Virus record (IMG/VR): IMGVR_UViG_3300037200_000028
Span: 1 to 34,235 of that record
DNA: 34,235 bases
Strand: one strand, 5' to 3'
Origin: a virus
Under the pieces are notes generated by a model. The model had not been told where the DNA came from and searched no databases. It worked only from the letters and a program-made list of their open reading frames with translations. Below are positions 5,631-31,989 of the stretch, piece by piece (position 1 is the first letter of the stretch; every line of letters begins with the position of its first letter). Position numbers and translations under genes: made by a program.

Positions 5631-7703
5631 TTAGTCCTCCTTGTTCCACCAGTCGTTGCTGCGGCCCACCTGGTTAGTAAAACCATTGTATATTTTGGGC
5701 ATTCCCTGTGGTTTGAATGTGTGTATGCCTGGTTTCTCAACATTAGTTTTCTTTTTATGTGTGTGTATTGCATATCTACAATTATGAACTAATATACCAT
5801 TAGCAAAGTATTCAGGCTGATCCTCCACGCTTATATCGTAAACTATCTGGTACTCCAAACTTTTGTTTTCTATCTCTTCTACCTGATTTAGCTTTACAAT
5901 TATTATGGCAGAATCTTGATCTTCCTGAGCATCTTGTTTTATATTCTTTACCACACTCTTCACAAACTTTTGAGATATATTCTCTATCTTTCCAACTTTC
6001 GATTCCGTGTGTGGAGTGCCATTTAATTCCTTCTTCTGTGGAGTGCCACTGTTTAGCTGATTCAACACCAGCTTCCCAAAATATTCTAAACTGCTCTGGA
6101 TCTTTCTCAATCCTTTTCTTACTATGTTGTGATAAATGTTTAGATTTTTCAATACATTCAAGATTTTCTGGTCTATTATTCCAAGGATTCTCATCTTTAT
6201 GATGTATATCATATCCCTTTGGGATCTGTCCATTATAGAATTCCCATACTTTTCTATGCATTGCCCATCTATGTTGTGTGAAGTATCTCCTTCCGGGATA
6301 TAATTTATAGACTCTTCTATTGAATGTTTGTTTAGGGTTAAAGTCATCCCCGATTGTAATTGTGAAATCTGTATCCATTTTTCATTACTTTTAATTTTAT
6401 GTTCTTCTGTTGAACTAATATATATATTAAAAGTATCTCCCTTCATCCGGTATTTTTTAACTCTTTTCAATCCGTTATTATGAGTTTTATAAACTCTTTT
6501 ATACCCTTTCGTTGTTAAAACCAGATCACCAACTTTAATTTCATCTATTCTAACCTTTCCATTAATCGTATCTATTAATGTCTCTCCGATAAAACAAGCA
6601 TCCATAGCATCATCATTTAGTTTAACTGGTTCATCCAGTATGTGGTTCCCATTTGTCTTCCAACTGTATTGCCTATATTCTTTCCAAGCATTGACGGCCT
6701 TCTCATCCATATATATTTGGGAGGATTTAACCGTGTCAATCCCAACCTTAACATTCTTATCAGATCCTCGGGCGTTCAATCCACTACGTCTTAACTCTTC
6801 TATGATTTCTGGTCGGGCCGAGTCACAATAAATAGTTTTATCATCACAACTTTCTCTTATCAAAGTAATTAGTTCGGATATAATCAGGTTGGATTTATAG
6901 AATTCTTCCTTAATGTATATACCGCCGGTTTCATTATAGGAAATCTTCATTAGGACGGATGGATGGTTAAAGCCGAAGTCTAACCCATAGCAGTGATCGA
7001 TCATCGTTCCTGGGTCACCTGTGTAACTTTTAAAGTGTGAATAGATCCTGGTGGTTCCCGTCGGGGCAATTCCCAGTGCATAAATCCTATAATAGTTCTC
7101 ATCCACATTTATCATGTTAGCAATGTAGTCTATCTGATCCTGTCCCAGGAATGTATTATCAAGGTAGGTGGATCTAATCAATATGGCCTTAGTATCTGTG
7201 TTAGCCAAGTCATAAATCCAGTGGTCAGATTCAGATGGGTTAAAGTCAATGAATACTTTCCCAGAAGTTCTCATCACAAGCTGCATATATTCCTCAAAGC
7301 TTATCTCATTAGCCTCATTACAAAATAGATGCGTGCGTTTCTTTCCACGAAGTTTTTGTTCATCTATCGTTGCAAAGAATTCAATGGTGGAACCATTCGG
7401 GAAGTCATAACGGTGCGCCGTCATATTGTGTAAGTTCTCGTGGTACAGGTTTAAGTCTTTCATTATATCCACAAAGTCCCTGTAAATGGATGTTCTTAAG
7501 GATGGGAAGTACTTTCTTACAACCGATATGGATGTGTTTGGAGTGGTTAGGGCAACATATATTAATAGTTGGAGTATAGAATATGATTTGGAGGACCTGG
7601 ATCCTCCTTGGTTAATTATAAATCTTATATTAGGATCTTGGAACGCTTCAAGGTTCTTTGTAAATATGGGGGTATGTTCAATCTGTAGTTCACCTTGGGC
7701 CAT
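5631..7703 (-). CDS. terL: Terminase large subunit (ATPase-nuclease), interrupted by an intein
   Basis: A 690-aa precursor. The host protein is 418 residues once residues 370-641 are removed, the usual size for TerL. It packages DNA through the portal and cuts the concatemer. Visible motifs: Walker A-like GGSRSSKS (33-40), acidic LFCNEAN with catalytic Glu130, an IRSTYLDN coupling segment (176-183), and RuvC-type nuclease acidic residues Asp242 (GLDFGFNHP), Asp294 (YCDSARPE) and Asp365/Asp368 (NDDAMDA). The third nuclease motif is split: DDAMDA is followed by the intein, and RYAIHTH resumes after it at Cys642. Unspliced protein would lack an intact nuclease site. The ATG at 7703 follows the 61-aa gene after a short gap. 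Confidence 0.95.
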   Translation of the reverse strand: MAQGELQIEHTPIFTKNLEAFQDPNIRFIINQGGSRSSKSYSILQLLIYVALTTPNTSISVVRKYFPSLRTSIYRDFVDIMKDLNLYHENLHNMTAHRYDFPNGSTIEFFATIDEQKLRGKKRTHLFCNEANEISFEEYMQLVMRTSGKVFIDFNPSESDHWIYDLANTDTKAILIRSTYLDNTFLGQDQIDYIANMINVDENYYRIYALGIAPTGTTRIYSHFKSYTGDPGTMIDHCYGLDFGFNHPSVLMKISYNETGGIYIKEEFYKSNLIISELITLIRESCDDKTIYCDSARPEIIEELRRSGLNARGSDKNVKVGIDTVKSSQIYMDEKAVNAWKEYRQYSWKTNGNHILDEPVKLNDDAMDACFIGETLIDTINGKVRIDEIKVGDLVLTTKGYKRVYKTHNNGLKRVKKYRMKGDTFNIYISSTEEHKIKSNEKWIQISQLQSGMTLTLNKHSIEESINYIPEGDTSHNIDGQCIEKYGNSIMDRSQRDMIYIIKMRILGIIDQKILNVLKNLNIYHNIVRKGLRKIQSSLEYFGKLVLNQLNSGTPQKKELNGTPHTESKVGKIENISQKFVKSVVKNIKQDAQEDQDSAIIIVKLNQVEEIENKSLEYQIVYDISVEDQPEYFANGILVHNCRYAIHTHKKKTNVEKPGIHTFKPQGMPKIYNGFTNQVGRSNDWWNKED
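5781..6596 (-). mobile_element. Intein (272 aa) in the terminase nuclease motif III
   Basis: The intein begins at Cys370 of the precursor (CFIGETLIDT, block A; codon 6596-6594) and has VGDLVLTTKG after it. Block B is TEEHKIKSNEKW with Thr432 and His435. The C-terminal half has VYDISVEDQPEYFANG (block F) and ILVHN followed by Cys642 (block G; terminal His-Asn and +1 Cys, Asn codon 5783-5781). All residues needed for class 1 splicing are present. The roughly 190-residue linker between the halves (about 440-630) shows no LAGLIDADG or HNH motif in this frame. A complete HNH gene occupies it in another frame. Confidence 0.95.
5812..6378 (-). CDS. HNH homing endonuclease nested out of frame inside the intein
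   Basis: A 188-aa ORF wholly inside the terL/intein coding sequence on the same strand but in the -1 frame. It shows a strong HNH_3-like core: HRWAMHRKVWEFYNG (36-50), GYDIHHKDENPWNNRPENLE (55-74; His59/His60, Asn68, Asn72), then SKHLSQHSKK. A second zinc-ribbon-like module has C139-x2-C142 and C157-x3-C161 followed by basic residues. The family makes a site-specific DNA break and is the usual partner of homing elements. A stop codon lies two codons upstream (TGA AAA ATG), so translation should start at this ATG in an A-rich leader. It ends inside the region for intein block F. Conserved motifs make a chance ORF very unlikely. Confidence 0.92.
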   Translation of the reverse strand: MDTDFTITIGDDFNPKQTFNRRVYKLYPGRRYFTQHRWAMHRKVWEFYNGQIPKGYDIHHKDENPWNNRPENLECIEKSKHLSQHSKKRIEKDPEQFRIFWEAGVESAKQWHSTEEGIKWHSTHGIESWKDREYISKVCEECGKEYKTRCSGRSRFCHNNCKAKSGRRDRKQKFGVPDSLRYKRGGSA

Positions 7704-12330: not shown

Positions 12331-12596
12331 TAGCAATACTTAAATCACTTTTAATAAGCAAAGTAGTAGTAATGTTTTCCCCACTACAATTGGTGCTTTC
12401 TATTTTTGAGGATAGTAAATATAAATTGGTTAAAATAATTTGTATGTTAATAACAGAATTGATTACTTGTTTTAGTTGCGCCTCGTTTTGGATATCATTA
12501 CTAATGTGGCATGACCTTTATATAAGCTGTGTGTGTTACTTATTAGCTTTTATTTATAATCGCTTCCTACAAAAATATGAAAATAAATTAGAATGA
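12318..12596 (+). CDS. Small membrane protein (92 aa)
   Basis: A 92-aa protein with about three hydrophobic segments: IIIAILKSLLISKVVVMF (about 3-20), LVKIICMLITELITCFSC (about 37-54), and a third centred on ISCVCYLLAFIYNRFL (about 69-84). Short charged tail. Its stop overlaps the ATG of the glycosyltransferase (ATGA), so the two are probably made together. It could be a membrane partner for the glycosyltransferase, a superinfection-exclusion protein or a holin; the sequence does not decide. Confidence 0.6.
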   Translation: MDIIIAILKSLLISKVVVMFSPLQLVLSIFEDSKYKLVKIICMLITELITCFSCASFWISLLMWHDLYISCVCYLLAFIYNRFLQKYENKLE

Positions 12597-13444
12597 AAAC
12601 ATTAAGAAAAGAACTTTATAGTCCAAAGTTAAAGGACTGGAAGCAATCATTAGATATTGCCGAAACGGTATTTGTTAATACACTTAATGATGAACCATTA
12701 ACCTTCAACCTACTTTGGTTAGGACCCAGAGACTTTGGACGCAAACAATTAGCCATCATTAAAAGTATATTAGCTAACCATAAGGATCCTGTGATACATC
12801 TTTGGACCAACCTGGATCTATTCTATAACGAATACTTCCAACAGGTCGCGCCCTATATTCATTTAAGACAGGTCGAACCATTGGATGGTGATGACTATAA
12901 ACATTATATGAGTTCGGATTATTATAGACTACGAATGTTAAAAGAACACGGTGGGTTTTGGATCGACTTTGACGTGTTGGTGCTTAGGGATATGAGTCCG
13001 TTAAATATGATAAACTTTGCCTATCAGCTTGGCACAAGTGGATTTAACGTAAATGAACCTGAGATGATGATGAATAATGCTGTTATGAGGCTTGATAAGG
13101 ATGGTGAAATAGTAAATGAATTGTTAGATTTATTAGGAAAAACAAGAGGAATCCCCTCTACTTATTGCTGGGGATCTGACCTATTTAAAAGACTAACTGG
13201 AGATAGGATAACGTGCTTGCCTGGAATTTGGTTTGAAAGTGCTGGGTGGGGCCACGAGGGATTATCCAAACATGAAAATATATTTACCGATAATGGAACT
13301 ATTGAAATGTTACCAGGAGCCTTTACGGCCCATTGGCACAATAAATGGGACCATGATATACATCCAAATAGTAAATTCCAATACATAGAACAAAATCATA
13401 ATTTAAGAATACAAAACAAAGTCAGAATTAAATTACCAATATAA
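12593..13444 (+). CDS. GT32-like glycosyltransferase with DXD motif
   Basis: A 283-aa protein. The segment YYRLRMLKEHGGFWIDFDVL (about 110-129) is the hallmark of the sugar-binding DXD family (Gly_transf_sug), with metal-binding Asp125 and Asp127. AHWHNKW (246-252) gives the usual C-terminal catalytic/metal histidines, and the WLGP-type opening strand (42-45) fits a GT-A fold. These enzymes transfer a sugar from a nucleotide-sugar. Targets in a phage could be host surface glycan, a virion protein or modified DNA bases. The last eight codons (VRIKLPI and the stop) lie in the 82-bp direct repeat, so the C-terminus may be a product of recombination. Confidence 0.85.
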   Translation: MKTLRKELYSPKLKDWKQSLDIAETVFVNTLNDEPLTFNLLWLGPRDFGRKQLAIIKSILANHKDPVIHLWTNLDLFYNEYFQQVAPYIHLRQVEPLDGDDYKHYMSSDYYRLRMLKEHGGFWIDFDVLVLRDMSPLNMINFAYQLGTSGFNVNEPEMMMNNAVMRLDKDGEIVNELLDLLGKTRGIPSTYCWGSDLFKRLTGDRITCLPGIWFESAGWGHEGLSKHENIFTDNGTIEMLPGAFTAHWHNKWDHDIHPNSKFQYIEQNHNLRIQNKVRIKLPI

Positions 13445-13880: not shown

Positions 13881-14160
13881 TTTCCTTTTCACTGTCCCCT
13901 TGCGTTTCAAACCAATCTGGTATATTTGTATTCTACCTGAAGAACCTATTTTTAAAATATATCAATCATCCAATGATGGTGCTGCCTATGTCATCTCATT
14001 TAAAAATGGTGGAAAATATTATGGATGGTTTAGTGATAGAGGATTTTTAGTTGAAACATCTCCCAAACAATTTAACCGAATCAGTATAGATAATAAATAT
14101 TTTATACCCTTAGATGAATATAGAATTGAAAAAATAAACCAAATACTAAATGAAAAATAA
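13873..14160 (+). CDS. Hypothetical protein (95 aa)
   Basis: A 95-aa protein starting MDDFLFTVPLRFKPIWYICI, with a beta-rich middle (DGAAYVISFKNGGKYYGWFS) and a short C-terminal helix IEKINQILNEK like the end of the previous ORF. It overlaps both neighbours by 8-11 bases. It lies inside the repeat-bounded cassette with the methyltransferase. No family recognised. Confidence 0.5.
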   Translation: MDDFLFTVPLRFKPIWYICILPEEPIFKIYQSSNDGAAYVISFKNGGKYYGWFSDRGFLVETSPKQFNRISIDNKYFIPLDEYRIEKINQILNEK

Positions 14161-15448
14161 AACTAAATTATTAAACGGAGATAATCTCCAACTATTAAAA
14201 ACATTACCAGATAATTCTATTGATTCAATAGTCACTGATGGTCCGTATGGATTGAAGTTTATGGGTAAAAAATGGGATTATAATGTTCCATCGGTTGAGT
14301 TTTGGAAGGAATGCTTAAGGGTTATAAAACCTGGTGGTTATGTATTATCATTTGGAGGAACACGCACATACCACCGACAAGTCTGTAATCTGGAAGATGG
14401 TGGGTTTGAAATTAGAGATTGTATTAGCTGGTTATATGGTTCGGGATTTCCCAAATCACATAACATAGGTAAGGCAGTTGATAAGATTAATGGGGTTGAA
14501 AGGGAAGTTATTAATAATGTAAAACAACCAAGAATGAATAATGATTATGGTAAAGGAGTATATAATGAAAGGGAATTGAAAGAAATAGATATTACCAAAG
14601 GATCCTCACCACAAGAAGGATATGGCACAGCCCTAAAGCCAGCCCAGGAATTAATTTGTATGGCAAGAAAACCTATATCCGAAAAGACGGTAGCTGAAAA
14701 TGTATTGAAGTGGGGGACTGGTGGAATAAATATAGATGGATGTCGTGTGGGTAATGAAGAGATGATACACAATGGATGTGGTAAATCTAATATAGGTAGT
14801 ATTGGTGGGTCCTTTGAAAAAGGAACAAAAGATAATAAAATATTTAAAAGTGAAGGCAGATTCCCAGCCAACATCATATTTGACGAAGAAGCTGCGAAGG
14901 AGTTGGATAGACAGAGTGGGGTAACAAAGGGAAAACCATCATATAAAACTAAAACCGGTGGATATCAAAATAGTTATGTTGGTGGTGAATTAAAAAATGG
15001 CGTTGATTATAAAGGATATCCTGAATCAGGCGGCGCCAGTAGGTTTTTTTATATCGCTAAGGTTTCAAAAAAGGAGAGGAATATGGGGTTGGATGGATTT
15101 GAGGAGGTTGAAATTACAGATGAAACATTTAATTCGTTTGATGAAAATGGAAATAGATTAAGAAAACATTCCGATGGATCAACCAGTATCATTAAACCTA
15201 TTATGCGTGCCAACCACCATCCCTGTGTCAAGCCCATCAACCTATTAACCTATCTTGTTAGACTGGTAACACCACCTAATGGTATAGTATTGGATCCTTT
15301 TATGGGTTCTGGTTCAACAGGTATAGCAGCACTATTAGAAGGCTTTAGATTTTGCGGGATGGAACTTGACAAATCATACTTTGATATTGCTACCGCAAGA
15401 ATTGAAAGTTTTGAGGAGTATCGAAAATTGATTAAAAAGAAGGATTAA
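14150..15448 (+). CDS. DNA methyltransferase, beta-class N4/N6 type
   Basis: A 432-aa enzyme. Motif IV is DGPY (30-33, a DPPY variant) within IVTDGPYGLKFMGKKWDY. The SAM-binding motif I is near the C-terminus: DPFMGSGSTG (382-391) followed by GFRFCGMELD. This order, catalytic motif before SAM motif, defines the beta class, which methylates exocyclic amino groups of adenine (N6) or cytosine (N4). The target-recognition region (about 90-330) is long. No cognate restriction enzyme gene is seen, so it is an orphan enzyme, most likely protecting phage DNA. The repeat-bounded context marks it as a gained accessory gene. Confidence 0.9.
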   Translation: MKNKTKLLNGDNLQLLKTLPDNSIDSIVTDGPYGLKFMGKKWDYNVPSVEFWKECLRVIKPGGYVLSFGGTRTYHRQVCNLEDGGFEIRDCISWLYGSGFPKSHNIGKAVDKINGVEREVINNVKQPRMNNDYGKGVYNERELKEIDITKGSSPQEGYGTALKPAQELICMARKPISEKTVAENVLKWGTGGINIDGCRVGNEEMIHNGCGKSNIGSIGGSFEKGTKDNKIFKSEGRFPANIIFDEEAAKELDRQSGVTKGKPSYKTKTGGYQNSYVGGELKNGVDYKGYPESGGASRFFYIAKVSKKERNMGLDGFEEVEITDETFNSFDENGNRLRKHSDGSTSIIKPIMRANHHPCVKPINLLTYLVRLVTPPNGIVLDPFMGSGSTGIAALLEGFRFCGMELDKSYFDIATARIESFEEYRKLIKKKD

Positions 15449-20387: not shown

Positions 20388-21356
20388 TTAATTTGGTAAT
20401 TGTAATGTATTACCTGCTCCTATACTAATTGCTGCTACTAATGTAGAGTAAAGACCTCCAGAGATTACGGTAGAGGCGCCAGTATCTGCGAAGGCGAAAT
20501 TTGTTAAGAATGAACCTGATAGGATGTTATTAGCCCCAAAAGTAAATGCCCCACCTGATGTAAAGAATATTCTACTGGCGTGTGCTCCACCCATTAGAAC
20601 CATTTCAAAATTAGCACCAGTTGTTACAGCACCAACCACATTAAATACATAATCACCATCCCCATATAGGGTAATAGTTTGGTCTGCTGTTGCGTCAAGT
20701 GCGTTACTAAAAGAATAAACCCCAGGTATAAATCTACCAGCAGTTAAACCAGAAGCTGTAATATCAGTTGATACAGATATTTGACTTGCTGTTAATGCTA
20801 CTAATTGGTTATACAATGTGTTGGCTGCGGATACCGCTGCTGTGCTTACTCCTGAATTAGTTCCAGATCCAAATACTATATTGGTAGGGTTTGTTAAAGT
20901 ACCCTCACCAGTATTTCCACTTAGAATAAATTCATTGGCACCAGCTGTAATAGTTCCCCCAGTTAGTACGGTAAATCCTGATGCGACACCAAGACTATAA
21001 AGTGATGCTGATGGTGTTACTACATTTGAATAAGGATTAACCACAAGGTTAGAATCCCAGTTATTCCCGAAAGAATTAAATGTATATGATTGTCCCACCA
21101 ATAATGATTGATAAGCGTTTAAATTACCACTCAGATAATCACCCTCATAAGGAAATACATGTAGTGTATTTAAACCTGAGTTTTTTACAGAGATAGAATA
21201 TCCCTGAGTTGCCTCAGGAAGTTTTACACTATCCCCAGAGTTTGTTACGATATTAATGGTGTTTATATCTGATACCAATCTTGTGGCATTGGTCTGTCCT
21301 CCTGTTGGGAAGGCGGACATACCAGTTGACATATTATGAATTGTTAAGTTATACAT
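20388..21356 (-). CDS. Divergent DUF3494 (ice-binding-like) protein with N-terminal beta domain (322 aa)
   Basis: Residues about 1-112 form a beta-rich domain (TINIVTNSGDSVKLPEAT and SYTFNSFGNNWDSNLVV) of the type found in phage adhesins and decoration proteins. Residues about 120-315 follow the DUF3494 plan: SLGVASGFTVLTGGTITAG, FIPGVYSFSNAL (209-220), GDYVFNVVGAVTTG (234-247), GGAHASRIFFTSGGAFTFGA (256-275) and the closing STLVAAISIGAG. The family forms a beta-solenoid, and several members bind ice. This copy is more divergent than its neighbour, with GAHASRIFF in place of GAQAANVFW. Its place downstream of the tail tube and first DUF3494 genes suggests a virion role. Confidence 0.8.
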   Translation of the reverse strand: MYNLTIHNMSTGMSAFPTGGQTNATRLVSDINTINIVTNSGDSVKLPEATQGYSISVKNSGLNTLHVFPYEGDYLSGNLNAYQSLLVGQSYTFNSFGNNWDSNLVVNPYSNVVTPSASLYSLGVASGFTVLTGGTITAGANEFILSGNTGEGTLTNPTNIVFGSGTNSGVSTAAVSAANTLYNQLVALTASQISVSTDITASGLTAGRFIPGVYSFSNALDATADQTITLYGDGDYVFNVVGAVTTGANFEMVLMGGAHASRIFFTSGGAFTFGANNILSGSFLTNFAFADTGASTVISGGLYSTLVAAISIGAGNTLQLPN

Positions 21357-21379: not shown

Positions 21380-22336
21380 TTAAGCCTCTGATGTAATAGA
21401 TAAGCCAGTTGGTGATGCTGGAGGTGCTGGTGCCACGTTAGGGCCAGCTAATGGTAAATTAACCAAAACACTTTCAGCGAATACAATTACGTCATTCGTA
21501 TCTAATGTTATAGCTCCAATATTAGCCATCAACCTTCCATTTACACAAGCTGAGGTATTAACGGTAATAGATGTCTGTGCTAATACATTACCAGCGAATT
21601 GTGTTCCAACTCCAAGTGTTGCTGAGCTACCTACTAACCAAAAAACGTTAGCGGCTTGTGCTCCACCTACCAAGACAACTGAACTTGTTCCAGCTGCGGT
21701 TATAAGTGTTGAACCTATTTGGAAGATCCAAACAGCATTTGGGTTAGCCTGTGCGTCCAACATAAGTGTTCCTGTTATAGCTAATGAGGTTGCTACCTTA
21801 TAAACTCCAGGGGTTAATCTTTGTCCGCCAATATCGGCTGACATTGTTATACCATTTGGAAGTGCCATACCAGCAACTCGTGCTGCTAAAAAGTCTGTTT
21901 GTGCGTACATAGCCACATAGTCAGCAATGTGAAAGTCACCCTGTATTTGAACTGGTGCCTCGAATCCTGTTACGGAAGTTCCTGGATATAAACCGATATT
22001 TCCACTAATGGAACTGGTTGACCCTGGTACGTGTGTAATAGTTGTTGCTGCCAAAAGCCCGAAAGCTGCTGCTGAGGCAAGGTTAAGTGGTGCTGGTGAT
22101 GGTAAAAATGGCACCGGTGTTGATGTGATTGTTAAAGAGTCTACGCTCTCTACTCCATTTTGTATAGAGGTTACATCATATGTATATGTGTTTCCTGGGA
22201 ATACACTATAGTCAGTATAAGTTGATTGTGTAACTCCTGCGTTATTAAGCGGGAAGTTGGACCCATTTCTGTAGACGTTATATCCTGATACGGGTGAGGG
22301 CATTGAAGCCCAAGTAATGGTAATGTGGTTAGCCAT
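21380..22336 (-). CDS. Fibronectin III plus DUF3494 (ice-binding-like) protein (318 aa)
   Basis: Residues 1-75 look like a fibronectin type III domain (ITITWASMPSPVSGYNVYRN, then YTYDVTSIQNGVES). Residues about 88-290 are a clear DUF3494 domain: AAAFGLLAATTI (89-100), SGNIGLYPGTSVTGF (111-125), GQRLTPGVYK (171-180), LDAQANPNAVWIFQIGSTL (193-211), GAQAANVFW (225-233), SSATLGVGTQFAGNVLA (237-253) and CVNGRLMANIGAITLDTN (264-281). These are signature segments of the ice-binding/antifreeze-type family known from cold-adapted bacteria, algae and fungi. No signal peptide. The Fn3 domain suits attachment to a virion or surface. The gene follows the tail tube in the late operon. Confidence 0.9.
   Translation of the reverse strand: MANHITITWASMPSPVSGYNVYRNGSNFPLNNAGVTQSTYTDYSVFPGNTYTYDVTSIQNGVESVDSLTITSTPVPFLPSPAPLNLASAAAFGLLAATTITHVPGSTSSISGNIGLYPGTSVTGFEAPVQIQGDFHIADYVAMYAQTDFLAARVAGMALPNGITMSADIGGQRLTPGVYKVATSLAITGTLMLDAQANPNAVWIFQIGSTLITAAGTSSVVLVGGAQAANVFWLVGSSATLGVGTQFAGNVLAQTSITVNTSACVNGRLMANIGAITLDTNDVIVFAESVLVNLPLAGPNVAPAPPASPTGLSITSEA

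Positions 22337-28860: not shown

Positions 28861-31989
<3,129 letters not shown>

Follow-up and report, generated by a model that had tools for sequence, protein, structure and literature searches.

The window, i.e. the whole 34,235-nucleotide stretch of viral DNA analysed here (IMG/VR record IMGVR_UViG_3300037200_000028), carries on its minus strand a gene for the large terminase (TerL) that is interrupted by a putative intein, and a gene for an HNH endonuclease that is read from the intein bases in another frame. The features of this locus are as follows, with a slash marking intein borders.

5631-7703, minus: TerL precursor, a single ORF of 690 aa with a Terminase_3 match
6597-7703, minus: N-extein of TerL
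5781-6596, minus: intein of 272 aa in the TerL nuclease motif NDDAMDA/CRYA
5631-5780, minus: C-extein of TerL
6324-6596, minus: predicted N-terminal splicing (Hint) region, intein residues 1-91 (pLDDT ~88-96)
5913-6323, minus: intein-frame linker, residues 92-228, of low-to-middling confidence; alternative-frame reading of the HNH gene
5781-5912, minus: C-terminal splicing region with blocks F and G, residues 229-272 (pLDDT ~77-96)
5812-6378, minus: HNH endonuclease gene of 188 aa, ATG to TGA, in the intein frame +2
6376-6378, minus: HNH ATG, formed from the last A of an intein AAA codon and the TG of a TGG (Trp) codon
6136-6261, minus: HNH_3 core, residues 40-81; His59, His60, Asn67, Asn68 and His81 are invariant
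5896-5964, minus: CxxC...CxxxC zinc-finger-like module with Cys139, 142, 157 and 161, invariant in relatives
5812-5814, minus: HNH stop TGA, from the Pro-Glu codons (CCT GAA) of block F

The TerL intein and its nested HNH gene

The 690-aa ORF matched Terminase_3 (Pfam, 1e-24), Intein_splicing (Pfam, 9e-9, which is 0.1 bit below the gathering cut-off) and intein_Cterm (NCBIfam, 3e-6), and it contains both splicing regions, IntN and IntC, which are thus not on separate ORFs. The intein borders read DDAMDA/CFIGETL...GILVHN/CRYA; C1, Thr63, His66 and Asn272 are invariant across relatives, and the +1 Cys is present. In the intein-less relatives L001-L006 the motif NDDAMDACRYA is uninterrupted: they read EPVKANDDAMDACRYAVFTH where the window has EPVKLNDDAMDA/intein/CRYAIHTH. 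Excision of the intein would therefore restore the conserved TerL motif exactly. The TerL of these relatives is 41% identical to that of the window, which is the best value for any intein-less TerL, and no close relative with an empty site was found. By its sequence hallmarks, the element is an intein in TerL, putatively cis-splicing. A block F histidine is common in inteins but not strictly required. Block F of the window reads DQPEYF, with Pro replacing the His of the xxHEYF found in most relatives, which suggests that the window copy may splice weakly, though L082 has the same Pro.

The initial annotation had proposed that positions 5812-6378 are open in two frames and encode a complete 188-aa HNH protein that is nested out of frame in the intein. 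Indeed, this ORF is complete, and its product matched HNH_3 (Pfam, 8e-18) and phrog_15471 (6e-27). The gene covers the end of the N region (from intein residue 73) as well as block F, is not in frame with the splicing blocks, and terminates at intein residue 262, i.e. inside the block F coding region, as had been noted. The CxxC/CxxxC module was also recognised correctly, but its placement had to be corrected to residues 139-161, and a second module of this type, which most relatives carry, is missing from the window HNH. Lacking both this second module and the block F His, the window element may be a weakened copy.

In an AlphaFold model of the intein, the two Hint halves (1-91 and 229-272) were predicted confidently and the linker with low to middling confidence, including a long helix at residues 111-181 (pLDDT ~62-80). 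The splicing-domain model resembled the gp41-1 intein (Foldseek, TM 0.81 by target). The HNH model had a mean pLDDT of 90, and the HNH protein matched I-HmuI (PDB 1u3e) by profile (5.6e-5) and only weakly in Foldseek (E 0.09).

Relatives, stop avoidance and selection

We scanned HNH profiles against viral contigs and genome contigs and classified the resulting 138 loci with local HMMs for the N and C splicing regions. In seventy loci, the window included, a single ORF holds both splicing regions and the HNH lies at +2; this number increases to 77 once weaker C regions count (L137 and L138 appear identical). The other out-of-frame register is used by 5 loci, and in-frame HNHs were found in none of the 138. 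The HNH frame is free of stops in every locus classed as nested. The comparison of phage terminases that the initial annotation had called for thus revealed a shared out-of-frame HNH and neither of the two patterns that would have spoken against it, a broken HNH frame or an in-frame nuclease; the nested nuclease with a read-through intein recurs in ~80 divergent TerL loci. Among them are the terL genes of MT838676, Tetrasphaera phage TJE1, Acinetobacter phage Highwayman and Rhodobacteraceae phage LS06-2018-MD07, all with the same relative frame; the annotation of the last three lists no HNH gene inside terL. A host gene other than TerL was ruled out, as the exteins match terminase families. 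In almost all cases the insertion interrupts the RNase H-like nuclease motif, the sites being within a few codons of each other. Judged by eye, the nested-HNH inteins of L136 and L148 seem to interrupt the Walker B motif of TerL instead (e.g. HDAAW/C...N/CDELAAW). Two nested-HNH loci (L116 and L120) are on contigs binned as archaea (Thermoplasmatales and Nitrosotalea MAGs; bin assignment as given).

Other arrangements were found as well. In 13-14 loci (L017, L045, L054, L111 and L117 among them) IntN and IntC are encoded by two ORFs that flank the HNH gene, and some of the separate IntC ORFs have their own Shine-Dalgarno site (L111, L117). L125 is better taken as nested, with a frame change in its N part, than as split. 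In other phages, free-standing HNH homologues adjoin an intein-less terL or terS. A search of phages with the intein frame matched only nested-HNH loci and one short fragment, so that no mini-intein ancestor was seen. In Lactobacillus phage CL2 (L017, 506-2771), the annotated TerL ends after IntN, the HNH gene comes next, and an unannotated ORF contains IntC and the end of TerL; judged by this layout, it is a split TerL intein, unannotated as such. In Vibrio phage 1.245.O (L160, 161-3889), TerL has two N-type Hint matches and is accompanied by an HNH ORF and by a 'hedgehog/hint' ORF of its own; this is probably another split intein.

To obtain the expected number of stops, each HNH protein was recoded using locus-specific codon usage. 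Over the 70 nested HNH genes, the intein frame had 0 stops compared to 299.7 expected; this zero is partly built in, since the nested class is defined by an open ORF, and the weight therefore rests on the number of loci and on the controls. Free-standing HNHs showed no avoidance (266 stops, 238.5 expected), nor did split-associated ones (94 stops, 77.9 expected), whereas the 5 other-frame loci had 0 stops in the frame they use, with ~82 expected. For the window gene alone, 0 stops in the second frame compared to 3.9 expected (P ~0.006) is unlikely but not conclusive, and it is the conservation across the other loci that decides. The preference for +2 is explained by the fact that stops in this frame need xTA or xTG codons, which a hydrophilic HNH protein uses little: ~4 stops are expected per HNH gene in the +2 frame and ~18 in the other frame.

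The substitutions point in the same direction. For pairs at 60-80% identity, differences in the overlap by HNH codon position were.256/.228/.437, compared to.235/.214/.435 in free-standing HNHs, and the splicing and TerL segments had the usual pattern, each in its own frame. Since the changes in the overlap track HNH codon position 3, constraint at the protein level is not apparent in the linker, which is only kept open; selection in the HNH frame and mere stop avoidance in the linker were what the initial annotation had predicted. We did not accept the predicted linker helix as real, because substitutions there follow the other frame.

Expression, mobility and alternative explanations

In many nested genes, the HNH ATG is formed from an x-Trp pair of the intein near block B, and in 27/70 the HNH stop is formed from a Tyr-Asp or Tyr-Asn pair of block F; the window has TAC instead of TAT at this Tyr, and its HNH therefore runs on to the next stop. 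At the first HNH ATG of the nested genes, the mean anti-Shine-Dalgarno pairing was -4.3 kcal/mol compared to -2.4 kcal/mol in shuffles (p 1.4e-6), with -7 kcal/mol or lower at 18/66 starts and textbook sites in L081 (AAGGAGGTGTTATG), L080, L086 and L055. The HNH start of the window and those of its nearest relatives have no Shine-Dalgarno site, which is uninformative as an argument against expression in the window.

In Highwayman, the intein and the nested HNH form one 981-bp insert, and the site is empty in Acba_21 and in many phages with nearly identical TerL. The flanks of the insert are 99.4-99.6% identical to Acba_21, except that ~13 bp of the 3' flank are altered, including a Leu to Cys change at +1. 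Insertion as one unit indirectly supports the putative cutting of the empty terL allele by the HNH. The identities of Hint and HNH remain correlated once TerL is taken into account (partial r 0.49, 0/500 permutations), and in pairs such as L024 and L030 the HNHs are 70% identical but the TerLs only 29%. The arrangement changes at least 23 times on the HNH tree by parsimony, and fewer times if only strongly supported branches are counted.

Could the two frames have arisen from a normal in-frame HNH intein that was broken by sequencing or assembly frameshifts? Two compensating indels in one contig could mimic the pattern, and L125 does show a frame change in its N part. However, the same +2 relation is present in isolate phages, in prophage-like regions of isolate genomes (Rhizobium lusitanum L133, Piscinibacter L140 and Beijerinckia L148) and in dozens of contigs, with the intein frame free of stops, and the HNH search returned no in-frame relative. 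We therefore rejected a frameshift artefact, to which we assign practically no probability. It is also extremely unlikely that the HNH ORF is decaying or due to chance and that the intein alone matters: the P value of a single gene and the lost second module of the window copy would fit this, but the HNH and Cys residues are invariant, the substitution pattern follows the HNH codons, the HNH fold is predicted with high confidence, and the group-wide stop test rejects a chance ORF.

Production of the HNH as an IntN-HNH fusion by programmed frameshifting, and not from its own start, is very improbable. A +2 relation equals a -1 shift, and a run of five A directly precedes the window ATG, but upstream of it the HNH frame reads TAA AAT TAA AAG TAA TGA AAA ATG, in which TAA, TAA and TGA close the frame within 21 nt of the ATG, leaving almost no room for a frameshift from the N part of the intein into the HNH. 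Moreover, relatives have strong Shine-Dalgarno sites at the internal ATG, and the split and free HNH forms require their own start regardless. The HNH might instead be a packaging helper working with the terminase, as in HK97 or GVE2, and not a homing enzyme. HNH nucleases beside terminase genes are known and have been discussed (PMC10448857), and the free-standing relatives adjoin terL, i.e. the position known for such nucleases; but the whole insert is absent from phages that are 99.5% identical around terL, the HNH tree implies at least several switches of arrangement, and the HNH family matches I-HmuI by profile, which makes this role very unlikely.

We consider it highly probable that the window element is a homing intein with an overprinted mobility gene, in which TerL and the intein are made as one precursor and the HNH from an internal start. 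TerL and the intein would be translated together, and the Hint domain would fold from both intein ends and excise itself, restoring TerL. From the same mRNA, the internal start codon would yield the HNH homing endonuclease in the +2 frame, its bases doubling as a linker that would be stop-free only, with no further protein information. Where a co-infecting phage has a terL without the intein, the nuclease would be expected to cut that gene at the codons of the nuclease motif, and its repair would copy intein and endonuclease together. As the most likely origin, we infer that an HNH gene of the kind that stands free beside terL entered a small terL intein; where it landed out of frame and stop-free, the nested form would have resulted, and where there were stops, a split intein with the gene between its halves.

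Comparison with known homing elements and other genes of the window

In ShiLan, an HNH with zinc fingers is hidden in another frame of a phage methylase gene that reads through, and its distribution is disjunct (PMC11855218). There, too, the HNH ORF is at +2, relative to gp65, as is the window HNH relative to the intein. In contrast to the window HNH, which is flanked by intact Hint blocks, that of ShiLan has no splicing domain according to PMC11855218 and our own scan. The two HNHs match only weakly, and their modules are ordered differently. ShiLan is the closest precedent for the overprinted TerL intein. Canonical homing inteins, whose LAGLIDADG or HNH nuclease is in frame, share the splicing blocks, the conserved host motif and the position of the nuclease between N and C regions, whereas the window nuclease is a separate out-of-frame gene and the linker has no domain of its own. 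I-HmuI has a similar HNH core, as reflected in the profile match, but is intron-encoded and has other C-terminal modules. Fractured genes, reportedly described by Dassa et al. in 2009, carry a split intein whose two halves flank a homing endonuclease gene, and the gp41-1 intein is of this kind. The closest similarity of the window splicing domain is to gp41-1, and the same HNH family lies between split TerL halves in relatives; in the window, however, reading continues through the nuclease gene in another frame, which keeps the halves joined in one ORF.

A work by Gosselin, Arsenault and Gogarten on actinobacteriophage inteins of non-canonical architecture (bioRxiv 2025.01.02.630785) hints in its title at related architectures and may already describe the nested arrangement in actinophages. 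A preprint on non-canonical actinophage inteins is cited in PMC11855218. The suggestion of the initial annotation that the element could be a distinct class needs two qualifications: a splicing element with an overlapping nuclease gene does recur, but it is a variant of the known homing inteins and split-intein elements and not a category apart, and an out-of-frame HNH without splicing domains has already been published for a phage gene (PMC11855218). A bolder reading is only slightly more likely than not: overprinted inteins would be widespread and form a homing-element class of their own that has so far gone unrecognised. In this class, a two-gene parasite, consisting of a splicing domain and an autonomous nuclease, would be packed into a single stretch and would have changed to and from the split form repeatedly. 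In many members, conserved intein residues supply the start and stop codons of the nuclease (x-Trp in the vicinity of block B, and Tyr-Asp or Tyr-Asn in block F). The nested arrangement gives a concrete way, open to experiment, in which a homing endonuclease gene that stands free joins an intein, a natural link between contiguous and split inteins, and a clear, repeated example of overlapping genes in dsDNA phages with one frame kept only stop-free. Surveys and annotation that use the host frame alone miss the nuclease and label such inteins endonuclease-free or linker-only.

Elsewhere in the window, two adjacent genes (20388-21356 and 21380-22336, both minus) encode phage proteins with the Pfam domain Ice_binding (DUF3494-like; E 1.5e-13 and 4.9e-55). 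This pair is unusual for a phage structural region and perhaps represents a surface-binding tail or capsid decoration. The product of the gene at 28861-31986 (minus) has 1041 aa and contains GATGPTG repeats of collagen-like type (Pfam Collagen, 5e-12). A DNA methylase (N6_N4_Mtase, 14150-15448, plus) and a DXD glycosyltransferase (12593-13444, plus) are encoded on the strand opposite to the structural genes.
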